Origin: Brachybacterium alimentarium
GTDB lineage: Bacteria; Actinomycetota; Actinomycetes; Actinomycetales; Dermabacteraceae
Direction: 5' to 3'
Assembly: GCF_002332425.1 (NCBI RefSeq)
Contig: NZ_NRGS01000022.1
Coordinates: 86,187-150,186 of the forward strand
DNA length: 64,000 bases
Made by a program: the position numbers and the translations under genes. The notes under the pieces are model-generated. The model was not told the DNA's origin, ran no database searches, and was given only the letters and a program-made list of their open reading frames with translations. Below are positions 3,854-6,308 of this stretch, piece after piece (positions within the stretch are counted from its first letter, which is position 1; every line of letters starts with the position of its first letter).

Positions 3854-4501
3854 TCACTCGGTGTGGTGGAGCACCGCATGCCACCCGTAGGCAGCGGCAC
3901 CGCGCACGTGCCGCGGGGAGTCGTCGAGGAACGCGACCTGCTCGGCGCGCAGGTCCTCGCCCAGCTCGTGCTCGATCCGCGCATGCGCGAGGGCATAGGC
4001 CTCGCGGTCCGGTTTGGCTGCGCCGAGATCCGCCGTGTTCAGCAGGAAGCGTCGGCCCGGACCGAGGAAGGGCGTGATCCCCAGGTCGTCGAGCTCCTCA
4101 GGCACCCGGTCGGTGCCGTTGGTCAGGATGAACACCGGGATCCCCGCGCCGCGCAGTGACTCCAGCTCGTCCAGGACCTCTCGATCGATCCGGGCGGGGG
4201 AGGACAGCCAACCGCGGATCACGGCGTCGGCGCCCTCCGGGGTGCTGCCTGCCGCCACCAGCGCGGACGCAGCCTGCTCGCGCCATTGGCGGTGAGTGCC
4301 GCGGCCTCGCACCACCTCGTCGAGGAAAGGGTGACCGAGCACCGCCTCGTAGACCGTGCCGTCGGGGACCTCGGCGACCGCATCGAGCTCGCCCCACAGG
4401 GACGGGTCGAAGCGCCGCAGCACCCCGTCGAGGTCCGACACCACCGCTCGGAGGTCGTGATCGTGCACGAGACCGCGCAGCTGAGTCAGGGAGGTGCTCA
4501 T
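3854..4501 (-). CDS. HAD-superfamily hydrolase (phosphatase)
   Basis: A 215-residue cytosolic haloacid-dehalogenase-type hydrolase, probably a phosphatase of a small phosphorylated metabolite. Motif I is DLDGVLR near residue 24 (nucleophile and acid Asp), motif II is TNGT near 127, motif III is the Lys of AAKPDREAY near 162, and motif IV is FLDDSP near 191. A small helical cap lies between motifs I and II. The ATG at 4501 is favoured over 4597 because a TACGAT -10 box (4513-4508) ends exactly 6 nt upstream, giving a leaderless start, and because the extra N-terminus would be Pro/Arg-rich and unlike the family. The substrate is unknown. Confidence 0.88.
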
Positions 4502-4507
4502 CGCGCC

Positions 4508-4513
4508 ATCGTA
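4508..4513 (-). promoter_or_regulatory. -10 box for the HAD gene (leaderless)
   Basis: Read on the minus strand this is TACGAT followed by 6 nt and then ATG, so transcription would start at or next to the start codon. Confidence 0.5.
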
Positions 4514-4587
4514 CGGAGGGCGGCGCCGAGGAGCGGGAGCGGCGCTGAGCAGACGATGCGGCGCGATGGTGGCACTGGAGTATTCGC

Positions 4588-4616
4588 GTGACGCCACGCC
4601 GCGGGTGCTCTACGGT
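4588..4616 (+). promoter_or_regulatory. Promoter of the uORF and ABC-F gene
   Basis: GTGACG at 4588-4593, a 17-bp spacer and TACGGT at 4611-4616 give a well-spaced housekeeping-type actinobacterial promoter. The ATG of the upstream ORF is 7 nt after the -10 box, so the transcript should begin on that ATG. A short AT-richer patch (AGTATTC, about 4579-4585) lies just before the -35. WhiB7-dependent promoters of ABC-F genes have AT-rich sequence in that place, but this patch is too short to claim WhiB7 control. Confidence 0.6.
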
Positions 4617-4623
4617 CGGCGGC

Positions 4624-4683
4624 ATGTCGTTCTCCTGCCTGTGCTTCGCGACCATCGCGCCGCGCCCCCGCGCCCGCCGCTGA
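4624..4683 (+). CDS. Putative leaderless leader peptide upstream of the ABC-F gene
   Basis: A 19-codon ORF, MSFSCLCFATIAPRPRARR, that starts 7 nt after a TACGGT -10 box and ends 95 nt before the ABC-F start. It has no ribosome-binding site and would be read from a leaderless 5' end. The peptide begins Ser/Cys-rich and ends in alternating Pro/Arg codons. The last codons and the stop lie in a GC-rich hairpin (4674-4689). ABC-F resistance genes are often controlled by ribosome stalling on such leaders, which makes an antibiotic-sensing attenuator the leading guess. The ORF is short, so chance cannot be excluded. Confidence 0.5.
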   Translation: MSFSCLCFATIAPRPRARR

Positions 4684-4689
4684 CGGCGG
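4674..4689 (+). promoter_or_regulatory. Hairpin over the leader peptide stop codon
   Basis: CCGCCG at 4674-4679 pairs with CGGCGG at 4684-4689 around a CTGA loop that contains the leader's TGA stop. A ribosome that stalls on or finishes the leader would cover this stem. Further GGCGCC-containing segments at 4688-4693 and 4735-4740 could pair alternatively. No terminator U-tract is seen. Confidence 0.4.
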
Positions 4690-4778
4690 CGCCACAGCAC
4701 CCTTTCTCGCGCCGTCGTCCGGAACCCGACCGGGCGGCGCCCCGCCATGCCCGGTGACCTCCCACCGGAAGGCACGAC

Positions 4779-6308
4779 ATGACTTCGCACATCTCTGTCC
4801 GCACCACCACCGGCACCGCGCACCTGCGCGCCCGGGGCCTCCACCTCGCCCGCGGCGGCCGCGTGCTGCTGCGCGGGGTGGATCTCACCCTCGCTCCGGG
4901 CGACCGCCTCGCCGTGGTCGGCGAGAACGGACGTGGCAAGACCACTCTCCTCGCGGCGCTCGGCGGCGACCTCGACCCCGATGCCGGGACGATCGAACGA
5001 CACGGCAGCCTCGGCATCGTGCCTCAGGAGCTGGCCGTGGACGACTCGGGCCCGCGCACCGTCGGCGCGCTGCTCGACGTCCTCCTGGCGCACCCGCTCG
5101 GCGTGCTGCACGTCCTCGACGAGGCCGCCGCAGCGCTCGGCGAGGACACCGGCGCCGCCGCGGCGCAGCGCTACGACGACGCCCTCGCCGCGGCGACCGC
5201 GATCGATGCCTGGGATGCGCCCCGCCGCCTCGAGGTCGCTCTCGAGGAGGTCGGCGCGATCACCGACCGGGGGCGCCGGCTCGACACGATGTCCGTGGGC
5301 CAGCGCTACCGGGTGCGCCTGGCCGGGGTGATCGCCGCCCGGGCCGATCTGCTCCTGCTCGACGAGCCGACGAACCATCTCGACGCCCGGGCGCTCGACC
5401 ACCTGACCCAGGCGATGCGCGAGCATCCGGGGGCGGCCGCGATCATCTCCCACGACAGGGCTCTGCTCGCCGAGATCGCCACCGCATTCCTGGATCTGGA
5501 CCCCACCAGCGACGGCGAACCGCTGCTGGTCAGCGGCGGCCTGGAGCAATGGCAGGAGGCCAGACGCCGTCATCGGGCCGCATGGGAGGACGCGCACCGC
5601 GCGCAGCAGGAGGAGCACGAGCGGCTGCGGTCCCAGGCCGACGCAGCACGTTCCCGTCTCTCCACGGGATGGCGACCCGACAAGGGCACCGGCAAGCATC
5701 AGCGGCAGAGCCGTGCCCCGGGCGCGGTGCGGGCGCTGAACGATCGGATCGATCGTCTTCAGGAACATCGGCTCGATGTGCCGACGCCGCCTCCGCGGCT
5801 CCGGCTCCCCGCCTCCGACACCCGGGCGGGGGCACCTCTGCTGCGCGTCGAGGAGGTGGAGATCGAGCGGGGAGCAGGGCTGCCGCCGCGTCTGCCCGCG
5901 ACCTCCCTGCGCCTCGAGGGCGGCGACCGCCTGCTGGTGGTGGGGCCGAACGGCGCCGGCAAGACGACGCTCCTGCGCGTCCTGGCCGGGGACCTGGCCC
6001 CTATGAGCGGATCGGTGCGGCGCCTGAGCGATGCGCGCATCGGACTGCTCGAGCAGGAGGACGACCGGGCGAGGTCACCCCATCGGGGCAGCCCGGGGGA
6101 GCGGCGACGGCGGGCGCTGGCCGCTGTGTTCACCGCTCGGCCTGACATCGTCCTGCTCGACGAACCCACCAACCACCTGGGGATCAGCGGCGTCGACGAC
6201 CTGCTCGACGCGCTCGAGAGGACGCCGTCTGCCGTGGTGCTCGCCACCCACGATCGGTCCGTGCTGCGCGCGCTCGCACACTGGCCGCGGCTCGAGCTGG
6301 GCGGCTGA
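4779..6308 (+). CDS. ABC-F family ATPase (ribosome-associated, possible antibiotic resistance)
   Basis: A 509-residue soluble protein with two ABC ATPase domains and no membrane segments, the ABC-F layout. Members bind the ribosomal E site and either assist translation or displace antibiotics. Domain 1 has Walker A GENGRGKTT near residue 48, signature MSVGQ near 170 and Walker B LLLLDEPTNHLD near 190. A charged Arg/Gln-rich linker follows (about 255-340). Domain 2 has GPNGAGKTT near 389, a degenerate signature GSPGE near 433 and IVLLDEPTNHLG near 452. GGAAGG ends 6 nt before the ATG. The upstream promoter and small ORF suggest attenuation control. A resistance role is inference; a housekeeping role is also possible. 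Confidence 0.88.
   Translation: MTSHISVRTTTGTAHLRARGLHLARGGRVLLRGVDLTLAPGDRLAVVGENGRGKTTLLAALGGDLDPDAGTIERHGSLGIVPQELAVDDSGPRTVGALLDVLLAHPLGVLHVLDEAAAALGEDTGAAAAQRYDDALAAATAIDAWDAPRRLEVALEEVGAITDRGRRLDTMSVGQRYRVRLAGVIAARADLLLLDEPTNHLDARALDHLTQAMREHPGAAAIISHDRALLAEIATAFLDLDPTSDGEPLLVSGGLEQWQEARRRHRAAWEDAHRAQQEEHERLRSQADAARSRLSTGWRPDKGTGKHQRQSRAPGAVRALNDRIDRLQEHRLDVPTPPPRLRLPASDTRAGAPLLRVEEVEIERGAGLPPRLPATSLRLEGGDRLLVVGPNGAGKTTLLRVLAGDLAPMSGSVRRLSDARIGLLEQEDDRARSPHRGSPGERRRRALAAVFTARPDIVLLDEPTNHLGISGVDDLLDALERTPSAVVLATHDRSVLRALAHWPRLELGG

Follow-up and report, generated by a model that had tools for sequence, protein, structure and literature searches.

The ABC-F ATPase gene considered here (509 amino acids; positions 4779..6308 of the window, that is, the 64,000-nt stretch of Brachybacterium alimentarium DNA that was analyzed, with all features of the locus on the + strand) is probably controlled by an erm-type translational attenuator in which a leaderless upstream open reading frame (uORF) encodes an arrest peptide. 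As judged by sequence comparison, the leader combines a conserved uORF, a conserved spacing between promoter and start codon, an arrest-type motif at a fixed position, and mutually exclusive helices, of which d:e displays covariation. Only its leader and its nearest relatives justify calling the ABC-F protein macrolide-type, since its scores are below the cut-offs of the named resistance families: the nearest curated models are those for ribosomal protection-like ABC-F proteins (NF000355; 275.7 bits against a curated cut-off of 380) and for TlrC/CarA/OleB/SrmB (NF000171, ARE4; 250.6 bits against a cut-off of 800), the latter representing the nearest named resistance family.

The leader region is intergenic because the upstream neighbor gene is divergent. 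The predicted leaderless uORF, MSFSCLCFATIAPRPRARR followed by a stop codon (4624..4683), is preceded by the -35 hexamer GTGACG (4588-4593), a 17-nt spacer, the -10 hexamer TACGGT (4611-4616) and 7 nt that lead to the ATG at 4624. The stop codon TGA (4681-4683) sits in the loop of a hairpin formed by CGCCGC (4675-4680) and GCGGCG (4686-4691), and 95 nt separate the uORF from the ABC-F ATG (4779), which has its own Shine-Dalgarno sequence (SD), GGAAGG (4767-4772). This layout of promoter, 7-nt gap, TGA within a 6-bp GC stem and 95-nt interval had been put forward in the original prediction, and every coordinate was found to be correct on direct reading. An Rfam scan of the window yielded no match.

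In this genome and 37 congeners, 14 loci, including the one in the window, encode close ABC-F orthologues (62-100% identity), and the uORF is conserved in 14/14 of these, which, together with the stability of the predicted fold, makes the layout more than a chance occurrence. In each case, it comprises 17-19 codons, starts 6-7 nt after a TAnnnT hexamer, ends with RPR[AVST]RR immediately before the stop and places its TGA in the same hairpin, with N-termini that vary freely (MSVIMSSAAQVARPRVRR, MTTCFLGICAIARPRARR, MLSTSAGASMMARPRTRR). Beyond the genus, orthologues found at the levels of family, order and class, with identities of about 42-54%, have MRHTGIASMRLRTRR, MYLGTAFMRLRFAA, MNFGMPSRRLRSRR, MYSGIASMKLRSVR, MARCCWPIWSQRLRSAR, MYTGIASMRLRSCR and others that likewise start 6-7 nt after TAnnnT, and plasmids of Micrococcus, Streptomyces and Prescottella bear copies with MYRGIASMKLRSAR, MARGIWSQKVRSAR and MYASTGFMKPWSLR, the gap between the -10 hexamer and the start being 8 nt in the Prescottella plasmid leader.

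The peptide of the window contains the +X+ arrest motif Arg14-Pro15-Arg16 (4663..4671), three codons before the stop. All 32 intact class-I uORFs have [R/K]-X-[R, rarely W] at exactly three codons before a TGA located in a GC hairpin; the motif is strict +X+ in 30/32, the window's uORF included, and the other two have W. In 30/30 class-I leaders examined, 6-7 nt lie between a TAnnnT hexamer and the uORF start codon. The respective background frequencies, 4.8% of stops for [RK]x[RK]xxx-stop and 0.7% of ATG/GTG codons for TAnnnT at that gap, are descriptive only because the related sequences are not independent. Both +X+ and XPW are macrolide arrest motifs, +X+ is also a ketolide arrest motif, and R-L-R is where ErmDL stalls the ribosome, Leu then occupying the P site (PMC8298421). 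Conservation in relatives had been named beforehand as the main point on which the original prediction would stand or fall, and the uORF, the leaderless spacing and the Pro/Arg end are all kept. The Pro/Arg-rich end had been suggested as the stalling region; this end is indeed conserved, with R-L-R, a macrolide arrest motif that has been studied in depth, at the same codons in more distant orthologues, but the informative part is +X+ at a constant number of codons from the stop rather than richness in these residues. The initial interpretation was largely right; the pattern extends throughout the class and is no peculiarity of the locus in the window.

According to the protein tree, the +X+ clade, in which leaders of the R-L-R type form the background, gave rise to R-P-R twice and to x-x-W leaders four times. 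Three of the four W leaders, KPW in L182 and L186 and RPW in L191, fit the published erythromycin motif XPW; the fourth, KLW in L153, matches no known motif. In the leader L162 (2794-2939, - strand), a 1-nt deletion frameshifts the uORF, which points to either a sequencing error or a decayed leader; an internal ATG would give MPSRRLRSRR followed by a stop. A DNA-pattern search for the uORF end returned mostly chance matches outside the ABC-F family, the exception being genus g12, where AGGCTCCGCAGCCGCCGCTGACGGCGGC matches just upstream of ABC-F orthologues. A distant ABC-F subfamily (L168, L170-L175; 37-41% identical) appears to be devoid of the uORF, and at several of these loci, the ABC-F gene itself appears to be leaderless (TAnnnT-N6/7-GTG CATCTCGTC).

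Six leader segments would constitute the RNA switch: arm a, the last two Arg codons (4675..4680); arm b, GACGGCGGCGC (4682..4692); arm c, GCGCCGUCGUCCGG (4709..4722); arm d, ACCGGGCGGCG (4729..4739); arm e, GCCCGGUG (4749..4756); and arm f, CACCGG (4763..4772), which overlaps the SD. Arm b can pair with a as long as no ribosome is stalled, or with c once one is stalled at R-P-R; c can pair with b or d, and d with c or e. Pairing of e with d would correspond to the on state of the switch, and pairing of e with f to the off state. Under the proposed mechanism, RNA synthesis from a WhiB7-type promoter would start at the uORF AUG, and the uORF would therefore be translated leaderlessly. Without drug, ribosomes would reach the TGA and the leader would adopt the a:b, c:d, e:f state, in which the ABC-F SD is kept within or next to hairpin e:f. 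When a macrolide-type drug occupies the exit tunnel, the ribosome would stall at R-P-R while Pro15 is in the P site, such that its front edge (about nt 4681) covers arm a and frees arm b; formation of b:c and d:e would then release f and allow the ABC-F protein to be made. By rescuing ribosomes, this protein would limit its own induction.

Structure predictions are broadly consistent with this scheme. The usual toeprint distance is 16 nt, and with Pro15 placed in the P site as in ErmDL, the front edge of the ribosome falls at 4681. In the RNA masked to this position, the predicted minimum-energy fold contains an 11-bp b:c helix starting at 4682, followed by d:e, whereas the unmasked leader is predicted to fold as a:b, c:d, e:f; the e:f hairpin, CCGGUG/CACCGG, appears in both the no-ribosome and the stop-codon folds. 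Mutually exclusive structures at the ABC-F ribosome-binding site are accordingly predicted. The stop hairpin, with a folding energy of -14 kcal/mol (z -2.2, compared to -2.8 for the whole leader), had been pointed out originally; the hairpin is present, but the predicted switch consists not of this hairpin alone but of a chain of exclusive helices reaching the ABC-F SD. Among 29 aligned leaders, helix d:e is 93.1% paired, with two compensatory positions (A-U/G-C and G-C/A-U) and a covariation score reached by 0/500 shuffles that rests on about two evolutionary events. In the same 29 leaders, 88.8% of the c:d cells are paired, mostly with G-U/G-C alternation, and neither a:b nor c:d showed covariation above shuffles; the RNAalifold consensus on A1 recovers c:d alone. 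The energetics lend modest support, since the computed mean SD accessibility in 30 leaders rises only from 0.24 to 0.33 upon masking to the edge of the stalled ribosome, and the gain is missing in several leaders (L004, L005, L160, L162). The uORF start (ATGTCGT) is complementary to the ABC-F start (ACGACAT) over 7 bp, and this pairing closes the minimum-energy fold obtained for the window's leader, but it is unconserved (L002 and L006-L009 differ) and was rejected as a switch element.

The alternative that survives best, although we consider it unlikely, is that the same uORF sensor has a transcriptional output, with the alternative hairpins terminating or releasing RNA polymerase in an intrinsic or Rho-dependent manner, as in msrD, vmlR and lmrC. 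Transcriptional control is common among the known attenuators of ARE-ABCF genes (PMC10314930, PMC8546547), and hairpin c:d is strong and GC-rich. However, no terminator-like stem with a T-run was found in the region 4400-4900, no U-tract follows c:d, and the last helix sits on the ABC-F SD. Given that no intrinsic terminator was found, translational attenuation appears to be the favored output.

The start of transcription is predicted at or adjoining A4624: throughout the genus loci, the gap of 6-7 nt between the -10 hexamer and the ATG is the spacing that leaderless transcripts need, and GTGAC(A/G) at the -35 position is kept in most genus orthologues, with spacers of 17-18. WhiB7/WblC promoters consist of GAAAWY, 3 bp, the -35 element, 16-19 bp and TANNNT (PMC7157823). 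The leader promoter has the AT motif, the 3-bp gap, the spacer and TANNNT, the box here being AGTATT (4579..4584), not an exact GAAAWY; the 6-mer at this position has an AT content of 82% in the 14 orthologues of the genus and of 77% in the paralogues vs a background of 28%. The genome encodes a WhiB7 with the AT-hook RGRGRPRK, and the AT-rich box is a putative activator site through which WhiB7 may bind and control the leader. The whiB7 gene itself (L180, G000:C5:520572) is preceded by a leadered uORF that reads VIIIRNLAGAGLRPVGAPSLLQRERGYAPAVPSLS up to its stop, and an A/T-run lies upstream of the whiB7 promoter. Conceivably, regulation could be essentially a matter of the WhiB7-type promoter, with the uORF being a by-product of the leaderless start, in line with the presence of WhiB7 and the conservation of the AT-box, 3-bp gap and -35 element in the genus. 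This is very unlikely, however, in view of the more distant orthologues, in which the box is often absent and the uORF is nonetheless kept (L152, L153, L160, L161).

The codon usage of the peptide bears on the notion that the uORF merely loads ribosomes for ABC-F by coupling or reinitiation, with RNA structure accounting for the conservation and the peptide being irrelevant. Although the last uORF codons do form a conserved hairpin, the ABC-F start is 95 nt away and has its own SD, and the + positions are encoded variously by CGC, CGG, CGT, AGG and AAG, such that Arg/Lys at both positions survives AGG/CGN/AAG changes outside the hairpin arms while the N-terminus is free to vary. Because the codons vary among synonyms and the amino acid is kept, selection acts on the peptide, and simple ribosome loading is highly improbable. 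Least probable of all is the sensing of arginine or charged tRNA-Arg shortage via the run of Arg codons, as in amino-acid leader peptides: four of the last six codons are Arg in this genus, and leaderless poly-Cys uORFs of mycobacteria sense cysteine (Canestrari 2020, as cited in PMC9031893), but the same gene in other clades is preceded by only two Arg (RLRSAA) or none (MHLYFL) and is not metabolic.

A second type of leader, namely leaderless MHLYFL, MQYLYFL, MQYLFFL, MNLPLYL, MHLPLYL, MIQSVLYL or MCQSQLYL, occurs in a sister clade within this ABC-F subfamily; the 16 loci of this type (L015, L163-L165, L184, L185, L187, L188, L192-L199) form one group in the protein tree, with moderate support (89/83). 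No leaderless uORF was found before three other ABC-F genes of the genome; C14, a fourth ABC-F gene that shows about 39% identity and has relatives in most of the congeners, is preceded by the leaderless 3-codon uORF MLL (leader L176; G000:C14, upstream of 44814), and its relatives by MRL, MSI, MWI, VKL and others (L016-L030, L113, L114). In the C14-type leaders, the stop region TGATC(A/G)GC pairs with GC(T/C)GATC just before the ABC-F ATG; this 7-bp helix is 94.6% paired, with two compensatory positions and a covariation score reached by 0/500 shuffles. Leaderless uORFs therefore precede two separate ABC-F lineages. On the Prescottella equi plasmid, erm(46) (L182:5439-5739) is preceded by TAGGGT-N6-GTG and a leaderless-looking uORF, VGNTNIAVTEFRRF, with its stop in a CCGCCGC/GCGGCGG hairpin, so that a methylase gene has the same layout. 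Only tentatively could these leaders be viewed as a general, interchangeable actinobacterial sensor module, in which the peptide is encoded from nt 1 of the mRNA and which drives both ABC-F genes (with three types of peptide) and erm genes, erm(46) being an example. In this view, initiation by 70S ribosomes on leaderless mRNA would be a component of the sensor and might, for instance, ensure that the leader continues to be translated under conditions that impair normal initiation.

Leaders of the leaderless kind occur class-wide and also on plasmids, among them the Prescottella/Rhodococcus equi plasmid with erm(46). They seem to couple intrinsic resistance at two levels, that of a WhiB7-type promoter and that of a peptide attenuator. 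Whether macrolides arrest ribosomes alike on leaderless and ordinary mRNA becomes testable. A literature search, with most subscription papers outside its reach, yielded no description of a drug-sensing leader that is leaderless; leader peptides that sense drugs are usually sought by their SD sites, and a leaderless class would therefore be overlooked. Among the closest parallels is ErmDL-ermD, with its +X+ arrest motif, exclusive hairpins and predicted SD release of the resistance gene. ErmD is a methylase whose leader is translated from an SD, whereas here the uORF is leaderless, the controlled gene encodes an ABC-F protein and the motif keeps a constant distance to the stop. In streptococci, the macrolide-sensing leader MsrDL (MYLIFM) likewise controls an ARE-ABCF, msrD, and is comparable to the MHLYFL and MQYLYFL leaders of the sister clade; however, MsrDL acts via an intrinsic terminator, of a kind not found here, and is not described as leaderless (PMC10314930). 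Short uORFs and exclusive helices also precede the ARE-ABCF genes of CplR, VmlR, VmlR2, Are5sc and LmrC, and the CplR uORF MR[I/M] (PMC10201436) is resembled by the MRL/MRI/MSI uORFs of the other ABC-F of this genus. None of these five uORFs is called leaderless in the cited literature: a ribosome binding site occurs naturally at L1 of Are5sc (PMC12421871), and the tool that found several such uORFs, uORF4u, includes an SD search (PMC10219788). Finally, the poly-cysteine attenuators of mycobacteria provide a precedent for leaderless regulatory uORFs in actinobacteria, although they sense the supply of cysteine rather than a ribosome-bound drug.
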